From contig OZ024934.1 of the NCBI GenBank assembly GCA_964017235.1, positions 86,580,706 to 86,644,705 on the forward strand: 64,000 nt of DNA, written 5' to 3'. Numbering within the stretch: the stretch's first letter is position 1; the number at the start of each line of letters is the position of its first letter. Below are positions 8,251-62,037 of this stretch, one piece after another. The notes under the pieces are model-generated. The model saw only the letters and a list, made by a program, of their open reading frames with translations. It was not told where the DNA came from and searched no databases. The position numbers and the translations under genes were made by a program. Source of the DNA: Sabellastarte sp. h YS-2021. Lineage: Eukaryota; Annelida; Polychaeta; Sabellida; Sabellidae.

Positions 8251-8258
8251 TATAAAAG
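8251..8258 (+). promoter_or_regulatory. Candidate TATA box
   Basis: TATAAAAG lies 21 bases before the first ATG (8272) and 33 before the second (8284) of the cysteine-repeat gene. A start site 25-30 bases downstream would leave the 8272 ATG at or before the cap, so translation may begin at 8284. Alternatively the real start site is upstream and this match is chance. Confidence 0.35.
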
Positions 8259-8271
8259 CACAACAAACACT

Positions 8272-8335
8272 ATGTCTTATAAGATGTTGCTCTGTGATGT
8301 TATTGTTCTTCTTATGTTCCTAACCAGTGTGAATG
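8272..8335 (+). CDS. Exon 1: signal peptide
   Basis: It encodes MSYK followed by MLLCDVIVLLMFLTSVNG, a typical secretory signal, and ends in phase 1 at a GTAAGT donor. The ATG at 8284 is an alternative start that still gives a full signal peptide. Confidence 0.8.
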
Positions 8336-11300
8336 GTAAGTGACGAGACTTCTTTCTTATTATTCAAAAGTGAGAAATTGAAACAATAGGAATACATTTA
8401 AAACACAACTGGTAAATAAACAAACTTGACGTAGACCTTAGTTCTTCAACTACAGGTGTATCTAAAGGCAAACTATGGTCAAACCAATGTGATTTAAATG
8501 TTAAATATGCTTCATTTAATCCAGTGTGTGCAATGTAATAATACCTTTACAGATACCTCATCTTGTATCGTAAATACATTTAATGCTATATGCCATGTAT
8601 GCTTTATTTTAGTAGAAGCCAATGTTGTAAGATGTTTTTTCTGATATCTTTTCTAAAATTACATACGGATTGATAGGTGTAAGTCTGAAATATGACACTG
8701 GTTACAGAGATTACTGTAAGATGTAGTATTATGTATTTTCCACTTGTAGATATGTGGCTTAGATCAATTAAAAGATACACCACATTTTCTTCTTTGTCAA
8801 AATAAAGTACTTTGCCCTTAGTTGGAAAATTACAGATGGCCTTACTGCAGAATAATGGATAATGGCCCATAGGTGCTTTCGACTGATCATATTGTAATGT
8901 TGCCCTCAGCACATTGTATAGGCCACGTCACAACATGCATTTCAGATGGAGGGAAAGAGTGTATAATAGTTGATAAACATTCAGAATTCACCTGAATGTT
9001 GCATACTTTTCGCCCTGAATAAAGCACTTCAGCTGCAGCTTTGCATTTAATTCTACCAACTTTGTGGAATGATCTATCCGAGGACATCCAAACTGCGGTT
9101 TCTCTGTCATCTTTCAGGAGCAAATTAAAGACACACCTCTTCGGTAAAACTTACCCTCCATAGCCTTCCCGTCTCCCTGACATCTCTGGTGTCTTTCTGC
9201 TATGTATCTGGATTCTGATTTTTGCTTCTACCCCCATGGTTCTAGCACCTAAAAGTCTGTTATGTGGTGGGGAGTACGTGCTATAAAAGTACTCATTGCA
9301 TTATTGAATAATATTCTGCGCTGAACAGCATCAGTTACTGGTAAGCAGCTACCAATTTTCCCACTTCAGGCCGAGTCTGGAGTTCAGAACAGGACCTGAG
9401 AGGTGTATTTTACAGCAAACAGTGAGATACCTGTAACTTACTCAAAATTATTCCCTCTCCATTTCTTCCTTTGAATCCTATTTTTCTTGTCCATTGAGAC
9501 AAGAGGACCAAGAATACCAAAACACACCCGACCCCCGTTCCCACCAAGAGGGCTTTTGGTCTATGTGTACTTTTCCAGTCAAATTTCCAAAATTCTGTGC
9601 TAAAACAAGGAACTATTCGCATAATTCTTAAAACTTTGTAACACTTGGTTTTCTTAAAACCTTGGTTTTCTTTACAATAGAAACCATTATAAGTAACGAT
9701 TTCTTTGAAACAAGTAATTGTCTTTACCAGAATATCTATTTGTTTAGTTGGTTTCAACCAACTGGATGAATTGGAGCTGTAATTATTACCTTTAGCAGAA
9801 TGTATCTTATTCTGCTGGTTTCAGTCAGCTAGATAAACCAGAGTAATTATTAGCTTTACTCTATTCTGTTTATTTAAATAATTAGGATCAACAGCAAAGT
9901 GGTACTTACTTGCTCCTCCACCCCCTTTGCAATAATTCATTACAATTGAAAGACCAAATCGTTATTCACACTTGTTTTCCATAATACCCCCAGGGACTCC
10001 GTGAAAATGAAAATATGGTACGAGCAGATAGATGGTAGGGAAATGCTCACTTCCCTCTCACTCGATAGGTTCACGACCAACACCATTGTGATCACAAATG
10101 TCATGAGCCAAATGTCTCACGAAATCATCGCAAATAGTAACATATACTATTTATTTATTTATTTGGGGTTTTACGTCGCTTTCAACACTGTACAGGTCAT
10201 ATCACGACGGGTAGTTGGAAGGGCAGAGGAAACCAGTACATACAGTTCGCTAGGGTTCTGTACTGTAAACTGCCGACCAACGGCAAGCAACTACCAGCTT
10301 TCCCACTTACGGCCATGACGGGGATCGAACCCCAGCCGCAGAGGTGGGAGGCGAGAGTGTTACCACTCTGCCACCGTGGCCCCCAGTAACATATACTAAC
10401 ACTGTGTACTAATAAGTTGGCAGTTTAATGCTCTTACAGACACTGAACAGTGAACGTGTACCGGTTTATTGTTAAGGGAGAGCCAATTCCATGTCTAGTA
10501 TAAAGGACTAAAAGATTGGAATCCATAGAATCTTCCTCAAATGTTCATCCCTATGGCTGAATGGATGTTGAACAAAGTTTCCGTTTTTTTTTTGAACCCT
10601 AGAAATTGCTACTACAGAGATTAGGTGCTGTAAAACTACCATTAGATCACATGAAGTGACACATGGGTCAGTAGAACCATATTTAGCAGAACAGTGCTGT
10701 TCTGACTCCTCGTAAAATCGGACCAACTTTTCTTTGAATCATACCAATTTCATCCAATGTCAGACCAATACGTTTTATGTAACACTGCTAACAGTCCTAC
10801 TGAAACACACAGACAGGCAAATCCTGGTGAAAATACCAATGGAGAAGACAATAAGCATGTCATACACTCGTGTAGAAAAAGGAGGCATGGAGCCCAGTCA
10901 CACATATGTCCCATTAAAAGAGATACGACAGGTAAATAGTAACATTCCACATGTGTTTTCACGACCTTGTCAAATAATTACTACATGAACAGACTCTGGG
11001 CAATGTCCCAAATACACCTTACGGGATATTAACCTTTGGATAGAAAACATGAAATCAACTGTACTATGTTTATGTTGTGTTCATGGTTTATTTACTACTA
11101 ATTACAACGGTTCAATACATCACTTCAAAAGATATCCATGGTCAGCACATACTTTCTGATTGGTTGACACGAGTAGTGCACCCAAGCTGTGACCCATCCC
11201 ACTACCAACGTAGCCCATTGCCTCAACACTAAAGTGAACAGACAGATATCATCAGGCTACGCCACAATTCATGAAAGTCCATAGACAAAAAGAAAAAAAA

Positions 11301-14300
11301 AGAAAAAAAACCCTGAAAAAAGTGATCTAGAGAAGTACGAGCATCGCTAGAGCTCTCGTTTAAAAATGGTTGCATTACACTAAGGATTTTAATGCTGAAC
11401 TGATCTTTGATCTCAAATAATGAGGTAGTTTTCCAAGAATTAGACCCATAAACAGGATCTGAAATGAGATAAAACCCAGCTAACATATAATATGATATGA
11501 TTGGCCATTTTATTTTTCTTTTGGTATAGCTGATTGAAACTATGCCAAATTCTGACATGAGGGAAAACAGAGGTTTAAACCTAACATTTTGTGAATGAGG
11601 ACCAAGTATGTCAAATCATGAATTAGAATTTGGCATATTTTACATATAGACTTGTTTTTGGTACTACTCGTAACCTGTAGCCACGTGTGATGGAGACCCC
11701 TTTGTGATGGTAGAAGCCAGAACCTGTATCAGTATCTTCACCGGCAACCTCACAGATGGAAGTGATTGTGTGTAAGTGCAAATAGATCGAGCTCGATAAA
11801 TCTGTCATGAAAAAATAATGTAAGGTAGTTGTCAAACAAAAATTATCACTCTCAGAATGTATCTTGACAAAGTATCGAAAGTAAACACAACCACAATTAA
11901 AGTAAATGTAACACATAAATTTCAATCTTCCATGCTTACTTTTTAGTAGTTTTTTTTTTTTATAAACACAAAGAGAGTATTCTTATATTATCGTCATTGA
12001 TTTATTTCCTTTCGTTAACAAAAAAGTACTTTTAAAAGTAAGCTTTATAAATTTTGTACATATTCTCCAACAAAAATTTAGTCAAATGTCTAATATGAGC
12101 CCCTGGAATCTACCTTAGCTACTTACTACTTTGTCATTATCCTGTATGTAAAACATTTAAGTTCAATTCTTAGACAAGACTGTTTGTTAAGACTTACTTT
12201 TATATGAACAGCACAGACGAGGAAAGGGAAAGGCGCCAATCCTTGGCCCAAAAGGCAGAGGAATGTCTGGAGGAATTGTTTGCTCTGAAACAGTGTGAGG
12301 ACCCCTTCACTGCACAGTACCGTGGTTATGTATTGGCTGCCTACTCCCAGGCTAGTACCTACAGATGTGGTAGGTACTAAATCTTATACCAATGTAATGT
12401 TTAACATACAAATTCGGATTACAAATATACTTATAACAGCTATACTGGAACAGGGCTTTAGCATTTTAACATATTGTTGCGAGCTGGATTTGAACATAGT
12501 AAGCTGACTGCTGAACAGGACGTAAACCCAAACTTTGATATTTAACCTTTGAACCTGATAACATCCAAGTGATCATATGCCAACCACAAAACTCCAGTGC
12601 TAGAAAGTTCTTTATTTAAAATTACCAATGTTCACTGTCTTAAAATGACATGCTTATAACTTGCTGTAGCACATAGCAGATTGGCATGTGAGACTAAAGA
12701 AATTTTAAAAGTTTTAATTTGACTGCAATGCCAAAATTTTGTTGTAGATAAAGGTTTGAAATATATCTATTAAATACCAAAAGTCTCTGGTGCTGTATTT
12801 TATAGCTGGAGACTGCAGAAATGACACAGGGCTGAACCAAAGCCTCATGGACTGCTATGATTCAAGGTTTTCTCAAGATACCGAGATCCTCGATTGTGAG
12901 TAAGTGTACGTACAGGTATTAGGTAGTTCTGCAGCCTGCTTTAGAATGTGTACATATATTGGATAGTTTTGCAGAATGTTTTTTTTTCTCGCAATATCGG
13001 AGTGTAAGGGAAAACTGTATGAAACTGTTTTCTAAAATGCTACAGGGAGACTCAAATATAAGCAAAAGCAATAATTTCAAATGGTATTCAAGATTAACAT
13101 CTAAGGCCATTTTGACGTAATATTTATTACATATTGCCATGGCCTGGATTCTCACCCACCATCCTAGATGAGAGAGCCAAAAGATTACCATATAATCTCT
13201 AAAACACCAAAGTGTGTTTTTATGTAGCTACCTTAATACATTGGATAAAGAAGCACAATTCTACAATATATCATACTTACAAGTTTTTCATTCCTTTTCA
13301 AAGAAAGTTTCACTGGTAAATGGTGTTTTAGAAGAACAGAATAACTCTCAATTATTCTTTTTACCGTGGGATTATATAAGGCCTCATACTTTGAACTTAG
13401 ATACTTAGGAATAATAATGTTGCAGACTTTTATGATGTTATATGAAAACTCCTGAAAATCTCCCTCTCTCTTGTCCACGCCATAGGCTTAGGTACAACCA
13501 GACCTATGACTATGAGCACTGCATCATCTACACACTCTTCCTCAGTGGATGTGCTACTAACTTTACCAAGGAATGGTCAGAAAGCACTAACAGTGTGTGG
13601 CAAGGATATTTTGCAATGTGTGGGAAAGGTTAGAAAATTTGTTTAATAATGGTTTATGTTCAATAAGTTAACATAAGTTATAATCACACACAAGAAACTT
13701 TACCGAAATGTAATTTACCAGATTTGAAATGTTACATTTGTATCTTTAGCAGGAATAATTTCCTTTGTTCATAATGTGAAGCAAAAGGGTTTCTCTGCAT
13801 ACAAGACAGATGTATAATTATATAAAATAAGTCAGCTAATACAAAGTAACTGGTTACAGAATCACGACTACAACAGTTATTTAACTTTGTAACTTTAATA
13901 TTGTTTATGTATTAAATGTCCTTGCAAAGTGGAATGTAACTTTTAACCATGCTTTATTAGATGAAGAAACCAGTTGCTTTGACAATGGTGAAGTATTTGC
14001 GAAAGCGAGTCAGTGTCGTGAGGCAGTCGATGACATTCAACTTGTTGGATTTGACCTTGAAGAATATTGCAGGTACAGTGGTAGTTTGATGGTCATTACT
14101 TAGGTCAAAGGTTTTGTTTGTAGGATAATCCAAAATGTACATTTTATAACTGGTATACGTCAGTTTATATACACCAGTTGGTCACATATTTACGCGAATG
14201 GATACAAAATAAAGATTTGCAGCTATATTTTGCTTTACATGATTAAAAAAACCCACAAACACAACAGTTCCCAGGAAGTTGAAAAGAAAGAGGAATATGG

Positions 14301-17300
14301 GATATAACATTTATTCTTTAAGTTTTAAAACTACTTAGTTTTTTTTAATGAGGACATTGAGAAAAACCTTTGTTATAATTCTTTATTTTATAGTTGAATA
14401 ACCTAAGCTGGCCAAGCGACCTGTCGACCTAAGGTACCATAAGTAGCATGAATATTAAGGTCAGATCCAAGGTTAACATGCATGCACCCTCAGACATGAT
14501 AAAAAACACACATAAATACGACTGTTGGATATTTTTTCGTAAATGAATTTTTAGTATAGTATGGTCTAACCTCACATTATGGTTGGTACAACTGTAAAAA
14601 TATAATATACAACACGTCTAAAATAGTTCAGGGTAATGCTTATAGCTTTATAATTTGATACATGGTTTAAACTAGTACAAACAATAATGGATTATAATGG
14701 AATAAACAATCATTTGAAACTTTAACCAATCGGACCGTCAATACAAAAATTAATTATTGTAAGCCTCACATTCTTTGTTTGCTAATCTCAGGGCACCAAT
14801 CCTTGTAGAAATTACATTATCTACATATTATTCTATATATTATTGCATTAATAATAATAATAATTTTATTCCAGATATAAAATTACACTGTATTTGTCCA
14901 TCTTAACATAACAAGTGTAAAAACGTACTAATAGTAAAAATTGTGCAAATCAGTGAAAATATTTTCATTTCTAATACCTCTCAAAAAATACTCAAACATT
15001 ATCAAGCCGACCCAATAAGTCTGTGAAAAAACCCCAGTAAATATTTTCTGAAATGAATTGGAATTATGCAAACTTTGCTGATAAATTCAGTAATTATGTA
15101 CATCTTCCAATATTTTCAGTTAATATGTATGATTATGTATTTGACCTTTTCACTGTGTTATATACTTTAATTTGAAGAATGGCTAGACCAAATGCAATGT
15201 CTGTTAGTACATTTTGCACATTGTGTTTTCAGTACTATTCAAAATTCAGTCTGAATTTAATGGCATAAATGTCACACCCAATAACCGGCCATATCTGCAG
15301 GCCTTTCTGTTGCCCGTCCTCAACAATCCGTGTTACTCTATCTCTTTCCGTGTCTCCAGTGAAGTTGAATATATCCTATAACATTACTCTATATCGTCAT
15401 TAACCTAAAAGTATCTTTACTGAATCTTCTCTGTGTCAACCAGTAGCTATTGCCCTCCATTCCTTGTCTAAACCATTGCTATAGATACCAACAAGGTTTC
15501 AAAGGTGGTACAGCATCCCCAAACATGTTTTATCTGTGTCACAAACTACTGGACTTATTGCTTTAAGTGTGACCAGGACATAAAGCTAAGGTGAGCTTTT
15601 TCTTTCGTAATTTAAAATATATATTTCGTTGAAATATTCCCACAGGTTATCACTAGGTACTCTGAAGCCTTGTATAGAGAACATTCTGTCCAATCTCACG
15701 TGTGAAGAGGACTTCTTTCAATTCATCAGAGAGGTTGCCTACAGTGACCCAGAAGAGTTCTGCTCTGACCAAAGTATGTTTCTGAGTCTCTGAGAGGGAG
15801 TCCTGAGCCACTCAAAATCTGGGGAAAAACCAGTGAACTGGTCATTCTTAAATCTGTTGAATTATTGGGTTTTTTTGTCAATAGTATGATAGAAACCTGA
15901 TATTCATTCAGACTTGTAAAGCCAGTTTTTCGTTGGTTTGTTCATGTAATTGTCCTTATTTGCACAGTTTGTGCAATCTGTGACACAATGGTAAAACACT
16001 CACCTCTGAGACCAGAGTTTAAATTTTAAGTTTACATTTGCAGTATAGAACCTTCACCAACTGTATGTACTGGTTTCCTCCACCCTTCCAGCTACCCGTC
16101 ACAATATAACTGATACAAAGCTACAGGGTGTGACGTAAGACTCTATACCACTATACAAATGAACAAATTAGCGCACTGAAACTAATTGAGAACCAGCAAA
16201 CATTTACCATCCATTCCACTGCAGGTTGAGCTGGAAAGGAAACCCATCCCCTTGTAGGTCGGTGGGTGAGTCAGTGTGCTCTCCACTATGCTTGTGTGGT
16301 GCAGTGGTAATACACTCACATCCCACCCCCTGAGATCAAAGTTTGAATCCCGGCCTGACCTCATGTGGGAAAGTCGGTAGTCGCTTGCTGTTGATTTGCA
16401 GTTTACAGTACAGAACCTTGACCAACTGTACTGGTTTCATGTGCCCATGAAACTACCCATCATAATATAACCAATAAGGCCCTGAAGGCATGACTGAAAA
16501 ACACTTAATAAGTAAATAAATAAAATAAATAAATCTAGCCACTATGATTCTGTTTATGTTACATAACAAATACTGTGCCAAAAATGTTACCTCACACATC
16601 ACAATTTTGTTATGACAGTTGTTTTTCAATATTTTATTTCATACACATTCACATGTAGTGATCTGTATATTTTTAGGAATATGTGATCATAAAGTCCTGC
16701 AATGCCTGAATTCTACTGCCTTCACTTTCTCAGTCGACCCATCTAATTATGACGTCACTTGCAGGTAAATTGGCACTTGTTCTATAGATTTACCATTATT
16801 AATTAATTTATTTATTATGGTGGGTGAGTACATAATATAATGTGTTGCAGACAACAAGAGAACAAATGATTCTGTAGGTCTTAGCCTGGTGACCCATTTT
16901 AAACATTCATCAAGAGTAAAGACAAAAAAATAACACCCTAGTACATAGGACAATGAAATGATTTCCCCTGGTCTTTTCGAGTGGTAAAACTTCAAAATAG
17001 GTTCACAGTGGGCATTTTATATGTATTATACACTACTTTGGATACCAAGTAAAATAATTCCATATTTACATAAAATGCAGTATAAAGCAATTATTGCTTA
17101 CTATCCATATTAAGGCGCGCCAGTGAACATAAAAACTTCATTCTTTAAATTAGAATTTCTCTGTTATTTGTGCATGCATTTCAATGTAACAAACGTTAGC
17201 AAGATGATCTGTAAAATACATTTTAATGATAAACATAGCATAGTATTAGGCTACACAGCTTTAGAAATATTTACGAATTTACCGCACTTGAAAATTGTGG

Positions 17301-20300
17301 GAGAAAGTATCCACATTTAGGGAAGAAAAGGATAAAGTGATTCACAGTCTTTATTTTGAGGTTATGTCAAACACATTTTTTTGGTGGATAATAAATTCCA
17401 GAAATGAAAGTTTATGCTTTCAAGTGATCATGTCATCAACAGATGTACAATAAATATCAGTCCACTGAACATGGTTAAACATGAAGATGTTTTGTGTTGG
17501 ACCTAGTGCAAGGTACTTTAGTGCATTGTTATTTTGTAAGAATTTCCTCTCCAAAAGAGAGTGAGACTATAAACTCCCAATTATTAAAATGCACTCATTC
17601 ATTACCTCATAAAAGGTTAAAAGCTTTAAAACCAGTCAGAATTTGTGTTATTTATGTATGTGTAGGAACCTGCATGATGCACTTGAAAATGGCTGGTCCT
17701 GTCTGAGGTTAGACTTCAGCTGCACACCAAACTATGACATGCTCCAAGAATTGCAGAAGTCATTAGAATACCATAGAGGCCTCTATCTGCATATGTGTCT
17801 CGGTAATACAGATAAAAAATAATATCATGTTAAAATGTACTATGACCTTCAGATGTATCCAACTTTTGAAAGTTTGCCAAAAATTCACCCCTAGGTATAA
17901 TCTTATTATTAATACAGGATTTCTTTCCCCCGGGTAGTAGTGGCTGGGATCTTTAATTTATTGTTTTAGGGTGACACACCCAGCCCTTACCCACAATATC
18001 GACAATGGGATTATAGAATGTACTCTATGTCAAATCATTGTAAAGTAAAGCTATAATGTATTTCAAACTTCTGTTTCAGCTGAAAACAACTGCATATTTG
18101 ACACTACTGTGATGAAAGAAATGGTATCTTGTTATGATATACCAGTGACAACCGAGAGCTACTGTGGGTGAGTGGGGTTACCCAATTAAAACAGTTTATA
18201 TAAGCATAGATAATATAATATAAACTTTCTTATGAATGTTCATCTATATAGAGGGACAAGTGACAGTTTGAATTAAATACTTGTGATTTTTAATATTTAT
18301 GGGATAATACTTATATACTCATACGCAAATGTATTGTAAGAGCCATATTTTAGGGACGAAAATTCAATTAGCATGTTAAGAGTTTAAAAGTTCAAAGCAT
18401 CAAATAATGGTATTCAAAAACATGGTATTCATAAAGTACTAGTACATATTAGGACATATTAGCTTACCAAACAGACTCCCTGTGCATTGCAGTATATTGA
18501 TGCAAAAGTGGAATATGCACATAGCACATAACGCAAACTGAAACTCAAGCCTTAAGCAAGACCATTAAAATAGATGCCACATATAATAATATTGTTGTCA
18601 GAATACATTGGTAAATTACCTGATGAATACCAATATAACTGTGTAACAAACGTTAATAACAATCAGTTAGATGCAGCATTTTATGCAACTCTTTTGTTTA
18701 CTCACAGGTCATTTGAAACCTATTTGGATGAGGTGAAGAAGTGTTATACAGATATTCTAGATGAAAAGAGCTGCAGCAGGGAGTCTAAGAACTACTACCA
18801 TAACATGTACAAGAATGCTATGCATCGGAGGGAATCTCAATGTATGTACAAGTCCTCATTTATTTTAATGTTTTGAAATTATTTTTTAGATTGTTTACAC
18901 ATCATTGTCAATAGCTTCACTATTTAAACAGCATTAGCACCCTGAAAGTGCAAATCCCTGCCAAGGGCCAGCACTTCCAATATTGCTTATGAGTACAACG
19001 ATAAAAAACTTAATTTTTGGATCCAGAGGGTGAACCGGATCATCAGCGAAATCTGATCATTTGTTCCATTTGCTATTGTTTGATGTTTCCTGAAACGTTT
19101 ATCAAAACTGCTCCATAATTTTTACCCCACAGCCCTTAATGGCTGTTGGGGTATTGTTTTCACCCATGGTGTCCGGATGGTCGGGCGGGCGGGCGTCCGG
19201 GCGGGCGGGCGGGCGGGTGGGTGGGCGGCGGGAAATAGTTTGTCCGGGCTGTATCTCAGAAACCGTAAGGTGTAGGAAGTTGATACTTGGTAGGGACATT
19301 GGTTAGGGGGTGTAGCTGTGCAACGTCATGGTCTGACCTTGATTTGACCTTTGACCTTGCCGTAGTGACCTTGACCTATAAAATCTTGTCTGGGCTATAT
19401 CTCGGAAACCGTAAGGTGTAGGAAGTTGATACTTGGTAGGGATATTGGTTAGGGGGTGTAGGTGTGCAACGTCATGGTCTGACCTTGATTTGACCATTGA
19501 CCTTGCCGTAGTGACCTTGACCTATAAAATGTTGTCCGGGCTATATCTCGGAAACCGTAAGGTGTAGGAAGTTGATACTTGGTAGGGATATTGATTGGGG
19601 GGTGTAGGTGTGCAACGTCATGGTCTGACCTTGATTTGACCTTTGACCTTGCTGTAGTGACCTTGACCTATAAAATGTTGTCCGGGCTTTATCTCGGAAA
19701 CTGTTAGGTGCAGGAAGTTGATATTTGGTAGGGATATTGATTGGGGGGTGTAGGTGTGCAACGTCATGGTCTGACCTTGATTTGACCTTTGACCTTGCTG
19801 TAGTGACCTTGACCTATAAAATGTTGTCCGGGCTTTATCTCGGAAACTGTTAGGTGCAGGAAGTTGATATTTGGTAGAGACATTGGCTAGGGGGTGTAGT
19901 TGTGCAGCATCATGGTGTGACCTTGATTTGACCTTTGACCTTGCCATAGTGACCTTGACCTATAAAATCGTCAGGGCTGTATCTCGGAAACCGTAAGGTG
20001 TAGGAAGTTGATACTTGGTAGGGACATTGGTTATTGGCTATAGGTGTGTTTTATCATGGTGTGACCTTAATTTGACCTTTTACCTTGCCGTAGTGACCTT
20101 GACCTTTAAAATCTTGTTACACCTTTGGGTCTGTCTTTTGATGCAGATTAAGCAAAAGTCATATTAGAATTTATTAAGAATTTTACTTTCATAACTTCCC
20201 ATTGTAAGAGATAGAATTTCAAGTGAGCCGCAGATTTTACTCCAACACCACACATAAGCATTCATTAAATGTATTACCACTTCTGTATGCATGGTAATAT

Positions 20301-23300
20301 TCAAACCATCTAAACCATAATTCGGAAATGCAGATGTATATAAAGAGTGTTGAATTTTAGTTTACTGATTAATGCTGTCATCTTGTCATTGAATTATCTT
20401 GTTTTAATACTTCATCTTTATATGCATTATCTTTCTTTTAAACATTATTTCTCCATTTAAACATTGTTTGGACCTTTATATAACTGACAGTGCTCTGAAA
20501 GTATCCTGAAGTTTGTACTGGTACAGTACTTCTATATCTCATGGTGTTGAAAATATTTCCCAAGGCTGTGGGGTACGGGCATCTCTGATGCTATTTTTTA
20601 AAGTTATTTTGCAAACAGACAAATGAACACGGCCAATTACATAACCGCCTTGGCAAAGTTAAAAATGATTTAGAACAACGAGGGATGTTGTGTCCAACTG
20701 GTCATATAACTTTAACACTTCTTTTGATGATACAGATCTTTATTTTGTCCAGTATTTAAAATTTCTACTGTGATATTGACCTCTTCAAAGTCTTTTGTAA
20801 TTGTATCCATCAATTGAATTGGACACCAGTTTTTATTTCACTTTGTCTCTGAAACTTAGAGGAGGTTAGAATGACGCAAGAACTGGGGAGAAAATGAGGA
20901 CAGTCTGGGGCAGATTTGGCCGTTTTTTAATTATTCTTACAATATCGACAAATTACATAGTAAATTATAGAGGATTGGGTTTCAAAAATCATTGCCAGTT
21001 CCCCAAACCAACTCAGGCTCTCTTGATCCATGACATAATTTCCTTGTTTTGGATTATCTGTATATCCTTATTACCACTGCTGGACAGGTTATATAATACT
21101 ATGTTAGTAATGATCTAGCACTTGCCGGGTTCAGATGATACTTGTTGGACAAAACAGAATCTATCAAGGCAGATACCATTTTGTCATTTCAATTGGAGTT
21201 GAAATTTGGTGGACCACAGGGGTCTGTTTTGAGAACAATACTTGTTTTTTATTTCTACACCAACACATTAGGTTCTATTATGTAGTCGTATATATAGTAG
21301 TATCAACTACTACTGTGACATCCAATTGAACAAAACTGCATCACCAACTGATTTTTCTCAGTCCATGTAAAATCTTAATGATTGGCTTAGATACATTTAC
21401 AGTTATTTCATGGTATTTAGTAAACTAAAAACCTCAATTCCTACAAGACGAAATTTTCATTTTAATAGAAATCTTCATTATAATATTACTTAATGTTGGT
21501 GACGTTAATACTCTTACAGGTAGTGAGTTTGCAGAATTCCTGGCTGCACTTTGACAATAATGTACTGTTTTGTTGTATAGGTAATGCCAGATGTACAAAC
21601 ACAGCAGACACGGTGATTGGTCAGATACACGCATGTCATGAGTCTGTGACGTCAAATGTTGATCAGCTGACCAGTGACCTCACCTACCTCAGCCAAAAGG
21701 GAAACTTTTGCAGGTTTGAGAAGTTACAGTAGACATGAGTTACAGTAGGCTTGATGCCGCAACTTGGCATACGCCTCAACTTGCCACAAATCACACAATA
21801 ATAGGAAACTAATCTACATTTGCTTGCCATCGTGAACACTTGCATTTCCTGTAATAAGTCTTATGCCCAGGTCACACGGTGGTGAAACTTAAAGGCAAAT
21901 AGACATGGATATCAAATTCTTAAATGTTCTTGGTGGATTCTTCATTATTCTTTGTCTTCAGTCCTCTTCATTATTCGCCACTTCATGCCGACAACAGCCT
22001 GATGTTCAAAATTGTGGCTGGTGTTCGCTGATGTTTGTATAACTTTGCCATGACAATTCGCCACGATAGGTAGCATATTCTCTGTGCGGTAGCTCTGCCG
22101 TAGGGCAGTCTCCGACGAGTCGTACTACCTTCTTGCTCTCAGTATTTTTCCTTGTTCTCACCTTGTTCTTTCTTTGGTGGTAGCAGAGTCTTCACATATC
22201 TCATTGATTCTCATCCTTTTATTGATAATTCGTGGATAATTGTAGAAAATCGCCAGATTTTGTAAGTATTCCCAATATAATCTTGGCTTTGTCAAAGTTT
22301 AATCTCAGAAAAGTAGAAAAACATCATAGAACATTGTAGAGCTCTGATAAACGTTTTATCACACTCCCCCCCCCCCCCTTCTTTTTTCCGGATTCCAGGA
22401 ATTCTGAAATCGCCTGTATTCTCTCCTATATTTGCCGAAATGATTGTAGCACCCTCTCCAGTGTGTGTGATTTGGGCCATTACTCGTGTAGGCCACGTTA
22501 GCTGTTGTAACAATGTGGAAATAAATTAATTGGTTGCATCATTTTCTTGCATAGATTTCAAGTTTTTGAGTCAAGTTAGGGCACTGATTACAATTAAAAA
22601 GTATAATATTATCACCATAATAAAGCATCGTGAAAGATGAATTGACCTTACTGGTTGTTGGTAAGACTATTTATAGCCTGTGCCTGTGACAATGCATACT
22701 TTACAGCCATGTTGATGAAATTTCCAGAAATTTTAGACATTGGCATAAAAATAAAACCAAGATAAAAAGATTTTGGTTGTGATCCCGATCACTATCGGAT
22801 CTAGGAATGTTTAAAGGATTTCTTATCATTCCACTCACAAGCAGTATTGCTGTGGTTGAGCCTTGGCAGAAGTATGCTTTCTTTGAGTGCTGTAGTCATA
22901 TATAAAACAAGCACAAATGAGAACAATTTTCTTCAAATGCCAACAGACAGCATGGGCAAAAAAAAGAGAAAAAAACACACACAAAAAAACCCCAAAAAAA
23001 CACAAACAAACTAATGTTTCATTCTATTTTAAATGTAACTTTCATCACTGGTACTACATGGATGGCATTGGGTCTAAATGGTGTTGAACTGAGCCCTTTC
23101 GCTTAAAACTGTATTCAATAGACAAATAAATTGATGAAATGATGTCTTTGGGAGTTAAGCTGGTGTTTCTCATATAACTGTTTTCGGTAAGTCAAGTGAT
23201 TTGTTATACAATTAACATATGAATAACCAATTATGAAGAGTTTGTATTTTGTATTGTCTTTTGTATACTTAATGAGACTGTAAGTGAAGTAAGTGAGAGT

Positions 23301-26300
23301 CTATTAATGATATCGGACCAAAGATACATATTTCCTGAAAAAAATAACATATATGTGTGCATTGTGACCTCAACCATATCCTAAACTTTCTTTTTCAAGC
23401 TAAGATAACTGCTGATGGTCGTTAAAACCATAAATTTAAACACAATGTTAGATGATTGTGATTTATCTGTTTACTAAAATCAATACCAGCTTTCTGGGCC
23501 CTTGAAATCCAGTACCGTGTTTGCTAATCATTGTTTTTGTTAAAACACGGACATGCGTGTACCTGAGTCATAATTTAAAGTTAAAAATACCTTTTGTGGA
23601 AAAAATTGAACTTAATTAACTTTGTTTTTGATAACATATGCATTTACAATATGAGATAGATCACCAAACATTTTAAATTTCTTTCTGTTTAAATTTTGGC
23701 TAAATATCAGTTACATCAAGAGGTAACATTAGTTTTCAGCAACTGGCTCTACACAATATAAAGTGGACTCAGTGTGTTTATCGCAACCAAGGGAAAATAT
23801 GAATGATGACATTTCCATACCAACCCAAATAGATAATATAATAAACACTTTACATTGAAAGATACATGACTAAATTTAAAATATAGCCTTAAAATTTTAA
23901 ATGCCTGAATAAATTGCTAGATATAAAGTTTTTTAATGCCTGTGCCTGCATGAGTTGCCGAGTGTAAAGTTTTTTTAACTCCCGTGCCTGCTGAGTGTGA
24001 AGTTTTTAAATGCCTGTGCATACATAAGTTGCCTGCATAAATTCTTTAGTGTAAAGTTCTATAATGCCTGTGCCTGCATAAGTTGCTAAGTGTATAAGTT
24101 GTTTAATGCCTATGCTTGCATAAGTTGCCTGCATAAATTGCCGAGTGTATAGTTATTTAATGCCTATCTCTGCATAAGTCACTGAGTGTAAAGTTTTTAA
24201 ATTCCTGTGCCTGCATTATTATAAGTCGCTGACTGTAAAATTGTTTAATGCCCATAATTGCTTTAGTTGCTGAGTGTAAAGTTTTTCAATGCCTGTACCT
24301 TCGTAAGTTGCCTACATTGGTTGCTGCGTGCAAAGTTATTTAATGCCTATATCTGCACAACCTGCACAGCGTAAGCTTTTCATTGCCTGTGCCTCCATAA
24401 GTTGCAAAAACATGAATATTATAGTCACAATACATCAGTATGATGAAAATGAAAATGTTTTTGTGTTTTCTCAGCTCCTTAAAGGAACAAGGAAAGTCTC
24501 TGATGTCCTGTGTAAATGGTGTCTTTGAGGTAGAATGGTGTGAAGATTTTTTTGTGGATGAAGAGCGTGCTTCTGCAGCTTTATACACACAAATGGAAGA
24601 TTTACTTTGCAACACAGATGGGGAAGTGATTGACCTAGGTATTTAATTATTATTTTTAACCTTTGAAGAATCCCCTTAAGAATACCATTTCTTGAAATCT
24701 GGTCATTGTGAATATCTGAGGGGGGAAATATTGGCAGTTATTTAAAACCTGGTGAGCCCTATGTCGTGTGCTTTTAATGATGTGATGAGCATCTAACTTT
24801 TTGTGACCACTACATCTTTTCATTGGAACAGCATGATAATTGCTTCTTAAGAATCAAGAAGGTGGGGCATGACATAAAAGTAGAAGGCTTGAGATCATCT
24901 GGCCTGAGATCATAGAAACAAAAGTGGTGCTCGCGAGAAAATAAGTGGTGCTTTTATCGCCCACCAGAAACGGCAACAGCTCAGAATGGTAAAGACAAAA
25001 TGAAAGTTCTATTTTTTTCTGAATATTTAGACAATCAGTGTTTAGAAAGGCAATATAACATAAATTGGTATATTTATATAGCACTGCAAAAAAGGTTTAA
25101 ATACATTTCACCATACACCAGCCACACATTTCAGCCTGTGTTACCATTCCTCTTCTATTTGCTGCAAGACTTTTGATGTTTTTGTTGTGTTTCAGGTTTG
25201 CAGTGCACTTCTTTTAAACCAATGTTTGATGCTCTTCTGGACTGTAGTAAACCTATAATGACAAAAAAAGACCTAACAAAGTCAAGTTTTCAGCCCCTGG
25301 AGTCTGCTACAGTATGCCAGTGAGTGATATTTTTGTAAACAGTGTCTTGTAACAGTAGACTAGAATTTATAAGCCATAGTATCATAAAGATAAGTAATAG
25401 CAGCATAATGATCAGTCATAGCATCATAAAGATAAGTCATAGCATCATAATGATAAGTCGGAATTGACTCACAACCATTAGGGGTGACTAATCAGCAAAC
25501 AGATACTCAGTTGTAAAGGTTTTTTCAAAAATTATTCAGAAAGTGAACTCATGCATGTTTATGTTTTTATCTCATGTTTCCATTTTGGGTGCATTATGAA
25601 AGCTCTCACTCCCAGAGCTCCCACAAAGACTAGCTTTGATAAGCTTTATCTAAAAAAGCCATAAAAAGATCTATGACGGTTGAAAATTTGAAAACCCGTT
25701 ACCTTGCTCAGTATGGATTATACAATTATGCCAGAAGCCCGTGCTGAAAAAAATCCAAAGAATAGCAGGCAAAATTATTCACAAAGACCAAGTTGGTTAC
25801 ATCAAAGGTAGATTTATAGGAAAACAATGACGATATACGATATCATACATTTGACTGAAGAACAAAATATTGATTGGTATATTACCTTTATTTATTTTGA
25901 AAGGTATGTTGCAATTCCTGTTCCAATTTCTGCCCAAATTTGAAAAAATGTTGACATATGTTTCAAAATTTCTTGTAAGTTCCTCTTTCCTACTTTCAGA
26001 GACAGGGACACTCTGTATATGGATGCAATGCAATGTCTCAGCAGTAAGCTTTATGCATTGGAATGCCCCATAGAGCTTCCCGTGTCATTGAGTGATGTAC
26101 TGTACAACCATACCAAAGTCATCCATGATTTTTGTGCAGGTAGAGTGTTATTAACATTTTTAAGCACATTTATTTGCACGTTTGGATATCTGTTATTTTA
26201 AATTGTGTAAGAGATTTCAACTAATTGGGTACTTGGCAACCAAGTACACTTATGTTCTAGCCACACTTCAGCTCATGGCCGGACCTCAAGTGGACTGGGA

Positions 26301-27782
26301 GTTGCTTGCCGTTGGTTGGTACGTTACAGTACTGGACTTTGACGTACTGTGTGACTGGTTTCCTCTGCCCTTCTAACTACCCATTACAATATAACCAATA
26401 AGGTACTAGCCATGACTTAAAACACTAAATAAATAAATAAATAAATGAATAAATCTAATTTTCTCTTGTAGTTTAGATCTTTGTAGCTGAACTGTTACAG
26501 GCAACAATAGCATTTTACCTCTTTGGTCGGGGGGCTGTAAATTAATTGTAAATATGGGCTGTAAATTGTTATCAAGCCATAAAGTAAGACATTCAACACA
26601 GGGCTTTATTTTATATTAATGGAAGGGCCTCAGTGACTGAGGAATTATAACTGTATTTAGTATTTAATCTCTTGGATCTTACCTCTGGTGTACAATGTTC
26701 TATTTAACCTCATTCCAATGTGTGGAATTCACTGTGCGCCTGTCCAGAAATGACCTAAAGCTTCTGTCACACCAATGGTGCATGTTATTTTAGGTGCTAA
26801 GCTCTAACGAAGCTCACACTTCTAAATATTAGATTTTGTTCTTTCTGTGTCACTGGACTTCCATGAATTGTGGCATAGTGTTGATGAGTACCTGTCTCAT
26901 CACTGAAGGTAAGCAGTAGTGGGCTATGTCAGTACTTGGATGGCTGACAATCTGAGTTTTAGGCCAGGTTTTGGATGTATCTGACAAGGAATTTGTTTTT
27001 GTCTCCAGACTATCATACTCTGATAGCACTACTCATGTCTCTTGTGGCTTTGAGGCTGGTGCATGTAGACTGAAAAACTTTTTGATCTGGTTCCTTTCTT
27101 GTGTTCACCCAGGCCAAAAAGAAAGCAAGTGGGTGTGACAGGTGCTTTATTTTGTTGCAAAGGGATACACATTTAGAAAACTTTGACCATTGATTATGCA
27201 GTTGACAGTTCTGAGGGATGGAACTCTGCATATGCACAACATAACATCATAACAAACAAATGGTGAAACAGAACTTTGAGAAGAAAGTTTCATTCTTATT
27301 AAATTTTAATTTAGAGTTACTATCTACAAGAACCAGCAAACCCACCAGTTCGGGGAGGTCCTGTATATCATTAGTTTCACAGTGAAATCATTATAAAACC
27401 AAAATATTCACCACAACATTTTTGCTATTGTCGGCACTGGCTCTGTATACTTTGGTAGTGGGAACATTTGTTTTGCATCATATGTCGGAGTAGAATGACT
27501 GATTCTGGTTTTCCATTCACCCATCAACATTTGGCTTTAATACAGGTCACGGGTGTGATCTGAATGCTTTTTGACACACATTTTGTTCTTTTGCATATAA
27601 CTGGAATACACGACATTGGCTTGTGTTTGGACAGCACACAAAAGTAATTTGAAAAATTGTTTCTATTTTATGCTTTATTTGTCTTATCAGATATCCCAGT
27701 TGTAGGAGGTAGCAATTGGGTTTCTGCTTCTATGACATCTTATATTGGAGTGGTGTTCCTATCATGGACAGTCAAGTACTGA
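8272..27782 (+). CDS. Secreted cysteine-repeat protein, 15 exons, 597 aa
   Basis: Joining 8272-8335, 12217-12369, 12806-12899, 13486-13628, 13961-14072, 15646-15773, 16677-16764, 17666-17802, 18080-18167, 18708-18841, 21581-21713, 24475-24638, 25196-25319, 26000-26139 and 27691-27782 gives one open frame of 598 codons including TGA; every junction is GT/AG. Exon 1 encodes a signal peptide. Exon 2 is half a repeat with three Cys. Exon pairs 3+4 through 13+14 encode six repeats of about 80 residues, each with exactly six Cys spaced roughly C-x12-C-x10..25-C-x10..14-C-x6..9-C-x20..25-C. Exon 15 adds a short tail ending in a weakly hydrophobic stretch, consistent with a GPI signal. All repeats start and end in phase 1 with an internal phase 2 intron, as expected from duplication of an exon pair. 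The family is not recognised with certainty. The spacing recalls nematode DUF19 (T20D4.11-like) and insect DUF1397 secreted domains, but that is unverified. An extracellular location is inferred; the function is unknown. Confidence 0.85.
9041..9310 (+). mobile_element. CR1/L2-like LINE 3' end
   Basis: Frame from 9041 reads PTLWNDLSEDIQTAVSLSSF then RSKLKTHLF. This is the conserved C terminus of CR1/L2/jockey-type ORF2 (P-x-LWN-x-LP...F+S-x-LKTHLF). A non-coding tail follows, ending near 9310. Only the extreme 3' end was retained, as is usual for 5'-truncated LINEs. It lies in intron 1 of the cysteine-repeat gene. Confidence 0.75.
9313..9404 (-). mobile_element. Type A SINE fragment
   Basis: Matches the head-proximal part of the type A SINE (GGTAAGCAGCTACCAATTTTC and the adjacent GAGAGGTG block). 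It is short and degenerate. Confidence 0.5.
10136..10398 (-). mobile_element. Full-length type A SINE with target duplication
   Basis: A perfect 14-bp duplication AGTAACATATACTA flanks it (10136-10149 and 10385-10398). On the minus strand the element runs GGGGCCACGGTGGCAGAGTGG (A box), GGTTCGATCCC (B box), the body, and a tail TTGAAAGCGACGTAAAACCCC followed by (AAAT)n. The intact duplication and well-kept Pol III boxes mark it as recent. It lies in intron 1 of the cysteine-repeat gene. Confidence 0.9.
12217..12369 (+). CDS. Exon 2: N-terminal half repeat
   Basis: Phases are 1 to 1, so it is a symmetric exon. The acceptor AACAGCACAG at 12207-12216 is chosen because only it keeps the frame after exon 1; the AG five bases earlier does not. 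The exon encodes a charged start (EERERRQ) and three Cys spaced as in the second half of the later repeats. Confidence 0.8.
12806..12899 (+). CDS. Exon 3: repeat 1, first half
   Basis: Phases 1 to 2, three Cys (GDC, MDC, LDC). Acceptor TTTTATAG, donor GTAAGT. Confidence 0.85.
13486..13628 (+). CDS. Exon 4: repeat 1, second half
   Basis: Phases 2 to 1, three Cys (EHC, SGC, AMC) and N-glycosylation-type motifs (NQT at the start, NFT). The acceptor follows a pyrimidine-rich tract. Confidence 0.85.
13961..14072 (+). CDS. Exon 5: repeat 2, first half
   Basis: Phases 1 to 2, three Cys (TSC, SQC, EYC). Donor GTACAG. Confidence 0.85.
15646..15773 (+). CDS. Exon 6: repeat 2, second half
   Basis: Phases 2 to 1, three Cys (KPC, LTC, EFC) and an NLT glycosylation motif. 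Acceptor TTCCCACAG, donor GTATGT. Confidence 0.85.
15975..16150 (+). mobile_element. Degenerate type A SINE
   Basis: Recognisable A-box region (ACACAATGGTAAAACACTCACCTC), CAGTATAGAACCTTCACCAAC and TACTGGTTTCCTCCACCCTTC blocks of the type A SINE, without the simple tail. It lies in intron 6 of the cysteine-repeat gene. Confidence 0.65.
16294..16534 (+). mobile_element. Type A SINE
   Basis: Head with GTGCAGTGGTAATACACTCAC (A box) and GTTTGAATCCCGG (B box), then the type A body and a TAAGTAAATAAATAAA tail. It follows another copy about 150 bases upstream in the same intron. Confidence 0.8.
16677..16764 (+). CDS. Exon 7: repeat 3, first half
   Basis: Phases 1 to 2, three Cys (RIC, LQC, VTC). 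Acceptor ATTTTTAG, donor GTAAAT. Confidence 0.83.
17666..17802 (+). CDS. Exon 8: repeat 3, second half
   Basis: Phases 2 to 1, three Cys (WSC, FSC, HMC). Acceptor TGTGTAG, donor GTAATA. Confidence 0.83.
18080..18167 (+). CDS. Exon 9: repeat 4, first half
   Basis: Phases 1 to 2, three Cys (NNC, VSC, SYC). Acceptor CTGTTTCAG, donor GTGAGT. Confidence 0.85.
18708..18841 (+). CDS. Exon 10: repeat 4, second half
   Basis: Phases 2 to 1. Two Cys lie in the exon (KKC, KSC) and the sixth Cys of the repeat is formed across the junction with exon 11 (T + GT). Donor GTATGT. Confidence 0.83.
19178..19230 (+). repeat. GGGC/GGGT simple repeat
   Basis: A GGGCGGGCGGGC-type tract, strongly GC-rich in an AT-rich region, with many G-runs on this strand compatible with G-quadruplex formation. 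It lies at the head of the 146-bp array. Confidence 0.75.
19241..20115 (+). repeat. 146-bp tandem array, 6 units, TGACCT-rich
   Basis: Units start at 19241, 19387, 19533, 19679, 19825 and about 19969. The first four spacings are exactly 146 bp and the fifth 144. Each unit runs from a TGTCCGGGCTATATCTCGG block through GGTGTAGGAAGTTGATA to a cluster of five TGACCT half-sites. Four units (1, 3, 4, 5) carry TGACCTTTGACCT, which on the other strand is AGGTCAAAGGTCA, a perfect direct repeat with 1-base spacing. Each unit also has TGACCTTGACCT (spacing 0). The minus-strand open frames here are only the array read in one frame. Confidence 0.92.
20590..21480 (+). mobile_element. Decayed CR1/L2/jockey-like LINE, RT fragment
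   Basis: Around 21131-21300, with frameshifts and stops, the plus strand reads YLLDKTESI, then FGGPQGSVLRTILVFYFYT and TLGSI. This matches the reverse-transcriptase block (G-x-PQGSVLGP-L-x-LYT) of jockey/CR1/L2-type LINEs. The preceding 500 bp may belong to it but are too decayed to read. It lies inside intron 10 of the cysteine-repeat gene. Confidence 0.6.
21581..21713 (+). CDS. Exon 11: repeat 5, first half
   Basis: Phases 1 to 2. It begins with the two bases completing the last Cys of repeat 4, then carries three Cys (ARC, HAC, NFC). Acceptor TGTTGTATAG; the donor GTTTGA is the weakest in the gene. Confidence 0.8.
23896..24406 (+). repeat. Degenerate minisatellite in intron 11
   Basis: About eleven imperfect copies of a 40-50 bp unit resembling TTTAATGCCTGTGCCTGCATAAGTTGCTGAGTGTAAAG, with some sub-duplications (extra TTGCCTGCATAAA). 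It ends about 70 bases before the exon 12 acceptor. Confidence 0.8.
24475..24638 (+). CDS. Exon 12: repeat 5, second half
   Basis: Phases 2 to 1, three Cys (MSC, EWC, LLC). It is longer than its equivalents because of extra residues after the last Cys. Acceptor GTTTTCTCAG. Confidence 0.83.
25196..25319 (+). CDS. Exon 13: repeat 6, first half
   Basis: Phases 1 to 2, three Cys (LQC, LDC, TVC). Acceptor GTGTTTCAG, donor GTGAGT. Confidence 0.85.
25357..25460 (+). repeat. Short tandem repeat, about 25-bp unit
   Basis: Roughly four imperfect copies of CATAGCATCATAAAGATAAGT just after exon 13 in intron 13. Confidence 0.75.
26000..26139 (+). CDS. Exon 14: repeat 6, second half
   Basis: Phases 2 to 1, three Cys (MQC, LEC, DFC) and an NHT glycosylation motif. 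Acceptor CCTACTTTCAG. Confidence 0.85.
26274..26456 (+). mobile_element. 5'-truncated type A SINE
   Basis: It has the body of the 10150-10384 SINE (GTTGCTTGCCGTTGGTTGG, TGGTTTCCTCTGCCCTTC, AACTACCCATTACAATATAACC) and a (TAAA)n tail. The tRNA head is missing or too decayed. It lies in intron 14. Confidence 0.75.
26868..26968 (+). mobile_element. 5S rRNA-derived sequence (SINE3-like or 5S pseudogene)
   Basis: The stretch contains CTCATCACTGAAGGTAAGCAG, then TCAGTACTTGGATGG, then GACAATCTGAGTTTTAGGCC. These align in order with the internal control region of 5S rRNA (CTCGGAAGCTAAGCAGGGTCGGGC then GTTAGTACTTGGATGGGAGACC). Box A and box C are both altered, so it is not a functional 5S gene. A 5S-headed SINE or a retro-pseudogene is the likely origin. 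It lies in intron 14 of the cysteine-repeat gene. Confidence 0.7.
27691..27782 (+). CDS. Exon 15: C-terminal tail and stop
   Basis: The exon starts with two bases completing a codon, then encodes about 30 residues. These include a small-residue cluster (GGSN) and a weakly hydrophobic end (YIGVVFLSWTVKY), before TGA. That layout fits a GPI-anchor signal but is short for a membrane helix. Acceptor GTCTTATCAG. Confidence 0.78.
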
Positions 27783-28057: not shown

Positions 28058-28063
28058 AATAAA
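28058..28063 (+). terminator. Candidate poly(A) signal
   Basis: AATAAA 275 bases after the stop of the cysteine-repeat gene; the intervening sequence would be its 3' UTR. Confidence 0.45.
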
Positions 28064-29617: not shown

Positions 29618-32600
29618 ATGTAGGATATTTTTTTTTTTTTTTTTTTAAGTGCACAAATTCTTTTATTCCCCCATTTAAAAATAAGGTTTCAGGAACCTGG
29701 TGCAGAGTAAATGGGGTTCTGAAACCACTCACCAGGACCTTTACAAAAAATAGCATCTCGCAGGATGCGCAATAAAGAACACACATTGCCTTTTTTTTTT
29801 ACAACACTTAAACTTGTGCAACTATATTTTTATTTATTTTGTTTTAAAAACTACAAATGAAGAAAAACAAAAAGTTAAATAAATATTTATACCAAAACTG
29901 CCGTTAGAATTTCTCTTTTCATGTCTTTTTTAAACCCAAAAAAACATATTAATATCGTTACCTTTTTTTTTTTTTCAGTTACTAGTCGCCCTGTATTCGA
30001 GAAAGGGACTCAATAGTTCCCATCTTTCAACATAACCCTTTATTATACCATATTCGTTTGTCGCTACACATTGCTCTAGGGAGTGATAGTATTGTATTAA
30101 ACTTATACAACATTTAATGCTAAGTTGCTGTTGTTTACATTTTGTATTATAAATATACTTTTTTACCACTGTGAAAAGATAATTTAAAACGTCCTTGTTT
30201 TCATTTTCGGCACCCCCCAGCAACACCTTCGCATCATCTAGGTTAAAGCTGATCTCTCTATTTACAAATATTATATCAAACAAATTGAACCAAAAAGTCT
30301 TTACCACTGGGCAGTACCAGAAGAGATGCTCCACTGTTTCGACACATTCCTTACAGTAGAAACATTTATCACTTTCTGTTAATTTACATTTAGATAAGAA
30401 TCTATTAGTTGGAATTGATCTGGTCAAGATTTGATATTGAAAGTCTCTCAAGGATGTCTCTATTACACTTTGAAAGTTATTTCGATAATATTTTGACCAG
30501 TCAGATTCTGATATCTCCCTTCCTAAGATTTCAGCCCATTTTATTTCATGACCTCTATTATATTTATTTAATGTCCTTAGTTTTTGATATACCCATTTAC
30601 TTGTTTGCTTTTGTTGCAAAAAGGATTGTAGGAAAGTTAGTTTCATTTCACCTTCCTTTTGTTGTGTTTTTCCACTTTTTAACCAATGGCTTGGTAATGA
30701 ATGGGTCAAACTATAGAAGTCTACAAAGTTTATTTTGATTTGGTATCTTTCTATAAAGTCGTAATAACCAAGACGGTCTCCAGAGTTTGATAATAAGTCA
30801 TTTACATATGCTATGCCTTTTGAAATCAGTTCTGTTGACCTATTACTTAAGTTTGGATTTGTCATGTAAAAAGTTCCCCACAATGGGTAGGTTCTGAAGT
30901 CATTTGTTTTACTGAAGCATTTTTTAAAACCATTCCATATCTGAAGGACATCTTTCCAGAAAGGATTTGGAATTTTTTCAACTAATTCCATAAGTGACTT
31001 TCCGTCCAGTTCTAAAACCATCTTTTTAGGTATTCCACAATAATTTTCAAAGATCGCCTGCCAGCTTCCTTCAGTTGTCAGGAGTCTCTTTAACCAAGAT
31101 AATTTCAGAGACTTATTAAAATCCCTAATATTTGTTAGCTTTAAGCCACCTTCCCCTATTTCCTTTTCCAATTGTTTATTACAAATTCTAACGTTACCAT
31201 TTTTCCAGAGAAAATCTTTTAACCTTTTTTCAATGGCCTCGAAAATGTTGCCGGGAGGGGTCGGTAGAACTGTTAATAGGTATACTATCTTCGGCAGCAT
31301 CAGTGTTTTTATTACAGTAACTCTCCCAATTAGAGACAAACTAAACTTACTATACATATTTAATATTCTTTCAATTTCACTTATTCTTTTATCAAAATTT
31401 AATTGAAACATTTTTTCTTGAGTAACATGGAAGATTATTCCAAGAAGCTCAAATTGGTTTACCCAGTTTAGCTGATAAGTTTGTGATATCTTTAATCTCT
31501 CTTTCTCACTCCCAAGCCAAACAGCTAGGGTTTTTTCCATATTTATTTTGAGACCTGAGTATTTTTGAAAAGACTTTAAAATGCTAAAACTCTCATTCAC
31601 AGATTGGACTGTGCCATCAAGCAAGAGGAAAGTGTCATCAGCATACTGCCCAATTTTTATCTCTTTATCATTTACCATGATACCTTTCAATTTGTCACTA
31701 TTCCTTATTGCTGTTGCCAGCGGTTCCACTGCCAATATAAACAAGTAAGGACTTAAAGGGTCTCCTTGTCGACATGACCTTCCAATTTTAAAAAATTCTG
31801 TAAAAAAACCGTTATTTATAACACAACTATTGCTATTTTTATAGAGTATAGAGAACCATGTTCTAAAGTCTTCCCCAAAATTATATACCTTTAAAACAGA
31901 GTCTAAATAGTCCCACTCGAGGGAATCAAATGCTTTTTCAAAATCTATTAGAAGTGTCATACCCGTAATTTTTTTTTGTCTTATATATTCTAGAGAATCC
32001 GCTATTGTCCGAATATTTTCCCCAATATATCGATTTTTTAAAAAACCTTTTTGTTCATTCTGTATTATACTGGGGAGAACTTCCTTCATTCTGGAGGCTA
32101 GAGCTCCTGCCAGTAATTTATAGTCAACATTTAGAAGTGTGATTGGCCGCCAATTTTTAATCAGATCTCTAGGTTTGTTACCTTTTGGGAGTAGCGTTAT
32201 CAGACCTTGTTTTTGTGTAATAGATAGTTCACCAGTATTAAAAGACTCATTCAAACTATCTAGAACAAAGTTCCCTATGTCCTTCCAGAAAAATTTATAA
32301 AACTCTGCAGTATAGCCATCTGTACCTGGCGATTTCCCGTTCTTCATGTCTTTCAATACTTTTATAACCTCTCTTTCAGTTATTAAACCTTCGCATTTCA
32401 CCTGCTCATGCTCACTCAAGGTTTTAATATTTTCTTTAACCAGGAATGGGGATTTACTTTGGTTTTGATTATCTTTGTGTTTACTCTGTAGGAGATTTTT
32501 GTAAAAGATTTTTAACTCTTTCAGGATCATTTGCTGATTGGTTATGGTTTCGTTTTTGATCATGATTTTGTTCACCACCTTACTAGTATAGTTCTGTTTT

Positions 32601-39640: not shown

Positions 39641-39691
39641 GGGGGGTTTTTGAAAGGTCCTAGTGTAAATGCAGAAGTTTGTTGAAACAAC

Positions 39692-42718: not shown

Positions 42719-43130
42719 GTGCACACTCCTATGTAATTGTGTTATTTATATAATACTATGTATATTTGACAAAAGGCTGCACATTCCTATGTAATTATGT
42801 TATTTGTATAATACTATGTATATTTGACAAAAGGCTGCACATTCCTATGTAATTATGTTATTTGTATAATACTATGTATATTTGACAAAAGACTGCACAT
42901 TCCTATGTAATTATGTTATTTGTATAATACTATGTATATTTGACAAAAGGCTGCACATCTCTATGTAATTATGTTATTTGTATAATACTGTGTATATTTG
43001 ACAAAAGGCTGCACATTCCTATGTAATTATGTTATTTGTATAATACTATATATATTTGACAAAAGGCTGCACATTCCTATGTAATTATGTTATTTGTATA
43101 ATACTATGTACATTTGACAAAAGGCTGACA
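42719..43130 (+). repeat. 58-bp tandem repeat x 7, 3' of first TLR
   Basis: Unit GGCTGCACATTCCTATGTAA, then TTATGTTATTTGTATAATAC and TATGTATATTTGACAAAA. The GGCTGC word recurs at 42775, 42833, 42891 (GACTGC), 42949, 43007, 43065 and 43123, exactly 58 bases apart. A single related block (CTGTAATTATGGCATTTGTC then TAATACTGTTTACATTTGA) occurs in the 3' region of the second TLR. Confidence 0.95.
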
Positions 43131-58906: not shown

Positions 58907-59052
58907 CACACATGACATTTCCTTATTTGGAGAGAAACCTTTTATAAGGGAATCCTTCACAATTTGAATTTCTGTGTGAATGTTTTGGTTAATTCAACAT
59001 CGAGAGCTTTTGGAAAGGACCTAGTGTCAGTGCAGAGGTTTGTGAAATAAAT

Positions 59053-61935: not shown

Positions 61936-62037
61936 AAAGGGAAGTGTGTGATCCAGTGTTAGATGATATTATATAGTAAATCAAATCTGTTTGGGAATAG
62001 TTTTAACACATGTGCAAGAAATTTAGAATATTCTGAG

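Follow-up and report, generated by a model that had tools for sequence, protein, structure and literature searches.

In this study, a window of 64,000 nucleotides from the annelid Sabellastarte sp. h YS-2021 (contig OZ024934.1 of assembly GCA_964017235.1, positions 86,580,706 to 86,644,705 of the forward strand) was analysed, focusing on a gene that encodes a tandem array of seven units with six cysteines (Cys) each. The repeat gene consists of 16 exons located at 8272-27782 on the forward strand, which join into one open frame 1890 bases long (629 residues plus the stop codon) without internal stop or frameshift. All 15 introns are of the GT-AG type and no splice dinucleotide is broken. By these sequence tests the repeat gene looks like a genuine and intact protein-coding gene.

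Exon map and ends of the encoded protein

Exon 1 (8272..8335, phase 0-1) carries the start codon and a likely signal peptide (about residues 1-21). The following 14 exons encode the seven units, each of which is divided between a half A with the first three Cys (C1-C3) and a half B with the last three (C4-C6). Unit 1 is encoded by exons 2 (11681..11771, phase 1-2) and 3 (12212..12369, phase 2-1), unit 2 by exons 4 (12806..12899) and 5 (13486..13628), and unit 3 by exons 6 (13961..14072) and 7 (15646..15773). The divergent unit 4 occupies exons 8 (16677..16764, containing C1-x6-C2) and 9 (17666..17802, containing C4-x6-C5), the latter being the weakest part of the gene model. Unit 5 is encoded by exons 10 (18080..18167) and 11 (18708..18841; its C6 codon is split as T and GT by the next intron), unit 6 by exons 12 (21581..21713) and 13 (24475..24638), and unit 7 by exons 14 (25196..25319) and 15 (26000..26139). 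Exon 16 (27691..27782) encodes the C-terminal tail, made up of small residues followed by a short and weak hydrophobic stretch, and ends with the stop codon. A possible polyadenylation signal (AATAAA, 28058..28063, forward strand) lies 276 bases past the stop. A TATAAA motif is present at 8251, just 21 bases upstream of the ATG; given this short distance, translation may actually begin at the second in-frame ATG, or the gene may have a further 5' exon upstream. The GC content of the exons is 0.435, compared with 0.353 for the introns, and the intron that separates exon 11 from exon 12 (2.7 kb) contains a 146-base tandem repeat in six copies (19240-20117).

None of the 16 exon lengths is divisible by three, so that dropping any single exon of the chain breaks the frame. 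The lengths of the 14 repeat exons modulo 3 alternate 1, 2, 1, 2 without exception, which gives every exon pair the phases 1-2-1, and both ends of all seven units lie at phase 1 introns, as in class 1-1 extracellular modules of the exon-shuffling type. The chance of such a modulo 3 pattern was calculated as about 2e-7 and that of exactly three Cys in each of the 14 exons as about 1e-8, both post hoc. For all 14 exons to be open in one frame, log10 P was about -16.8 by rough sampling if they were drawn from the introns of the gene itself.

The N-terminus is hydrophobic, with a mean hydropathy of up to 2.88 over 13 residues, and this stretch likely serves as a signal peptide that would direct the protein to secretion. 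The sequence contains nine NxS/T sites, including one where the likely signal peptide ends, and the calculated isoelectric point (pI) of residues 22-600 is 4.4. By its composition, the tail in exon 16 is taken, with no more than moderate confidence, as a possible glycosylphosphatidylinositol (GPI) signal, by which the protein may be anchored.

Anatomy and common descent of the units

Each of the seven units spans approximately 75-98 residues, and all 42 unit Cys are present, six in each unit; the Cys of unit 5 with the split codon was assigned to exon 11 by hand. In the six regular units the Cys frame reads C-x(12-13)-C-x(10-24)-C-x(9-18)-C-x9-C-x(19-23)-C. In all seven half-A exons no complete codon separates that of C3 from the donor site, and the intron within the unit falls two bases after the C3 codon. 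Nothing argues more strongly for a shared descent of all seven units than this common intron position. Identity among the six regular units is 14-24% (15 pairs) and drops to 6-17% when Cys are left out. Leave-one-out profiles were used for these six units, with alignment columns that had been built in the presence of the left-out unit and with unit 4 outside the test. Among 1000 Cys-preserving shuffles, the numbers reaching the real score were 0, 0, 4, 7, 19 and 8 for units 6, 1, 2, 3, 5 and 7, respectively. The scores of all six units thus beat most shuffles that keep their Cys, which argues that the units share more than Cys spacing. Homology of the repeats is shown by the profile for six units and by intron position and Cys count for the seventh, unit 4.

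Unit 4 was left out of the six-unit profile alignment (A1) because MAFFT misplaced its Cys, and its assignment rests on exon and Cys anatomy alone. Its Cys gaps are 6, 18, 12, 6 and 24, with both C1-C2 and C4-C5 shorter than in the regular units. For the disulfides we infer that C3 pairs with C6 and closes the unit, and that C1 and C2 pair with C4 and C5; the joint shortening of the two intervals in unit 4, as a single case, would fit the latter pairing. No further units were found in the six-frame open reading frames (ORFs, >=15 residues) of the window with a seven-unit profile, for which the best non-member had an E value of 2.9.

Two spacing rules were applied to the gene and to 44 control windows. 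Since both were fitted to the gene, they serve as specificity controls and not as independent tests. The regular rule recovered six of the seven half-A and five of the seven half-B exons, in some cases together with an additional splice option close by, and repeat-type exons were found in 0/44 control windows; the exons missed were both exons of unit 4 (8 and 9) and exon 11. A looser rule, widened to admit unit 4, recovered 7/7 half-A and 6/7 half-B exons, and in the control windows it gave half-A exons in three, half-B exons in none and a pair in none. Exon 11 was missed by both rules because its C6 codon is split by the intron.

In the consensus unit, an amphipathic helix signal was detected, with a hydrophobic moment of up to 0.66 at 100 degrees. 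AlphaFold modelling of exon 5 alone (unit 2 half B) placed helices at residues 3-19 and 28-45, with a mean predicted local distance difference test (pLDDT) of 64 and a predicted template modelling score (pTM) of 0.40, and that of exon 12 alone (unit 6 half A) placed helices at 8-22 and 26-39 (mean pLDDT 71.5, pTM 0.41). These models weakly indicate that the units are helical.

An earlier, sequence-only reading of this locus had described an undescribed-looking tandem repeat protein, arisen by duplication of exon pairs and selected for a disulfide fold, and this description agrees with the evidence. One long spliced frame across the interval, exon pairs with phases 1-2-1 (seen here across all 14 repeat exons), six Cys per repeat (exactly three in each of the 14 exons) and strong divergence of the other residues were all borne out by the present analysis. 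Its counts have to be revised, from 15 exons to 16, from 597 residues to 629 and from six repeats to seven units.

Database searches and neighbouring genes

The full protein matched no Pfam family at E<=10, and the same was true of each of the seven single units. A single consensus unit gave three families only (SWIRM, DUF2480 and SpoIVA_ATPase), all below cut-off. With a doubled artificial consensus, 50 families were obtained at E<=10, and among the best 25 of these 50, SWIRM (1.6e-6) and DUF2480 (6.5e-6) stood just above their cut-offs. These matches were rejected as artefacts of doubling a helical consensus, as SWIRM stayed below cut-off with the single consensus (0.012) and 0/7 real units gave a match. 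In the PDB at E<=10, the full protein had four matches (best E 0.13), the doubled consensus had 11 (best E 0.031) and units 6-7 had one (E 0.22); the six-unit profile matched NDUFB7 alone (E 0.26). All of these were considered chance matches. Rfam gathering matches and tRNAs were both zero. Among the papers listed in the literature search, no title or abstract opening pointed to a protein like this one.

A search of 5.8 billion proteins with the full spliced protein produced 3599 candidates, none at E<=1e-3, which is a weak null as this search finds solely relatives that share exact 5-residue words. The database entries for this genome are single-exon ORFs running into introns rather than spliced proteins, and some named animal proteins are also included in the database. 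Because annotated animal proteomes are poorly covered by the search, the null results leave room for animal relatives. When the six-unit profile A1 was run against the protein database, four proteins out of 105 candidates were found at E<=10, and three of them were exon ORFs of the gene itself: P0017 is identical to the exon 12 ORF, and P0014 and P0015 are identical to exon 13 ORFs. The fourth, P0016 (E 0.1), was rejected as a homologue, being 97% identical to the exon 11 ORF and thus a near-identical copy. The two differ at three of 100 residues, none of them Cys, with two of the differences falling within exon 11 and the third where the ORF reads into the neighbouring intron. Likewise, P0002 differs from the Toll-like receptor (TLR) at 39692 at one of 721 residues. 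P0016 and P0002 probably derive from another haplotype, or a near-identical copy, of the same region. A scan of viral contigs with P0014 returned no relative.

The TLR at 39692 belongs to one of two TLR genes on the forward strand (39686-42570 and 58993-61935), which follow the repeat gene downstream at distances of approximately 12 and 31 kb. Each comprises an ORF for a leucine-rich repeat (LRR) ectodomain and a separate TIR exon, and the two are approximately 69% identical in the large exon. A TLR protein search, used as a control for database content, gave 13 matches, one of them named (axolotl TLR13). P0003 and P0004, which come from contigs that differ in length, are approximately 57-60% identical to the TLRs of the window, which suggests an expanded TLR family. 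Immediately downstream of the TIR exons lie a 58-base repeat of 7.1 copies (42720-43131) and a 128-base repeat of two copies (62036-62292); their units are partly alike by eye, and the two repeats may share an origin in one duplicated TLR segment. On the reverse strand, an ORF of a LINE-type retrotransposon was found at 29975-33769 (1264 residues, with endonuclease, reverse transcriptase and zf-RVT, and no internal stops), together with an ORF of a Penelope-like element at 43985-45379 (reverse transcriptase, then GIY-YIG). In the latter, the reverse transcriptase match falls slightly short of its cut-off and starts only at position 74 of the 205-position profile, which may mean that this element is truncated.

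Proposed explanation and rival readings

The nearest documented design is that of RECK CC1-5, taken as an analogy and not as homology. In the excerpts of PMC11107207 and PMC6588345, RECK is described as a GPI-anchored co-receptor for Wnt7 with five tandem CC domains of approximately 60 residues, a fixed six-Cys pattern and 17-29% identity between domains, and CC4 as a four-helix bundle with three disulfides (6WBJ, named in PMC11107207). Going by these excerpts, both proteins have tandem six-Cys units with a similar range of identity (14-24% here), whereas the units here are longer (75-98 against approximately 60 residues) and number seven instead of five. In addition, no other domain was recognised by Pfam in the protein here, including no Kazal domain. 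Neither the full protein nor any unit matched RECK in Pfam, and no RECK or GFR-alpha chain was among the PDB matches of the full protein, the six-unit profile, the doubled consensus or units 6-7, a negative that for RECK presupposes the presence of CC4 in the PDB set searched. The Cys frame of RECK includes adjacent Cys, unlike the frame here. GDNF-receptor alpha and GAS1 are GPI-anchored receptors of tandem helical Cys-rich domains with more Cys per domain; they gave no Pfam match with the full protein or the units and no PDB match with the full protein or the six-unit profile. The C4-x9-C5 segment in half B of the six regular units, on a predicted helix, resembles twin CX9C hairpins. NDUFB7, a helical twin CX9C protein, serves only as a picture of a braced C-x9-C helix. 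Proteins of the twin CX9C type reside inside the cell and do not have the other Cys of the units here.

The explanation we favour, to which we give about an even chance, is that the gene encodes a secreted, probably GPI-anchored array of seven disulfide-braced helical modules, acting as a multi-site binding ectodomain at the cell surface. Each module would most likely be a small bundle of three to four helices with three disulfides, which would have originated and spread as a class 1-1 unit of two exons. With the Cys frame kept and the other residues diverged, each module could show a different binding face, and by analogy of design the protein may act as a receptor, co-receptor or adhesion molecule.

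Several findings weigh against this explanation. The gene model is a prediction from sequence. The profile made from the remaining six units gives unit 4 a score of -2.0 bits. Under a bare three-Cys rule, an ordered exon pair also occurs in 6/44 control windows, and the interval of unit 4 holds three half-A and two half-B candidates, which together make unit 4 the least secure part of the model. A decaying or mis-chained gene, in which an older array is no longer one protein or unit 4 does not belong to it, would be in keeping with this divergence, with a model built on sequence and not on expression, and with the symmetric (phase 1-1) exon pairs, which can be skipped without frameshift; the lack of any internal stop or frameshift, the 15 intact introns and the full set of 42 unit Cys make it highly improbable. 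The AlphaFold models are of low confidence and represent half units. Hydrophobicity at the C-terminus is weak and confined to a short stretch (highest mean 1.45 over 13 residues), so that GPI anchoring may be wrong. The protein could be a freely secreted structural, matrix or mucus protein rather than a membrane-anchored binding ectodomain, a reading that we consider unlikely. Matrix proteins often contain Cys-rich repeats in tandem, and the acidic pI, the potential N-glycosylation sites and the weak C-terminal stretch point in the same direction. On the other side stand the separate last exon, whose small-residue tail and hydrophobic end are like a GPI signal, and the strong divergence of the units, which is unlike homogenised structural repeats.

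Finally, no relative of known function was found in the searches made, so the binding role stands by analogy of design only, and two further readings place the units in known families. DUF19 proteins are Cys-rich, with about 12 Cys, and the protein could be a highly diverged DUF19 (T20D4.11-like) member in which two units perhaps correspond to one domain. DUF19 is described in the excerpt of PMC3534327 as a large Caenorhabditis elegans family whose members are putatively secreted (51 genes, 140-220 residues), in which respect it is similar to the protein here, and one DUF19-labelled protein of the Pacific oyster is named in the excerpt of PMC10058639; for these two reasons DUF19 is still a lead. 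A link to DUF19 or DUF1397 had been raised by the sequence-only reading, in both cases as a resemblance of spacing alone. It found no support in the Pfam searches, in which neither family was matched by the full protein, any of the seven units or the single consensus unit, although HMMER filters drop most weak matches; we regard DUF19 membership as distinctly unlikely. DUF1397 is a domain of the 27 kDa haemolymph protein type. A diverged relative of the RECK CC or GFR-alpha/GAS1 domains would account for the six Cys per tandem unit shared with RECK and for the comparable identity between units given in the RECK excerpts. The greater unit length, the different Cys frame and the absence of RECK and GFR-alpha chains from the PDB matches (E<=10) speak against it, and we consider it quite improbable.

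Beyond the favoured array of binding modules, we put forward tentatively, as a possibility that is on balance doubtful, that the unit represents a novel type of extracellular domain in animals, a helical module of approximately 80 residues, encoded by two exons, with six Cys and a disulfide topology of its own, which expanded and diversified as a cell-surface recognition array in one animal lineage, the surface of each unit being free to vary while the disulfide frame stayed fixed. If the units fold as proposed, they would constitute a family of extracellular domains that no Pfam model matches. Its history would be legible from the gene structure, in which the intron position is kept in 7/7 units while identity has fallen to 14-24% in the six regular ones, and the gene would offer a clean case of how a disulfide-braced binding scaffold diversifies.

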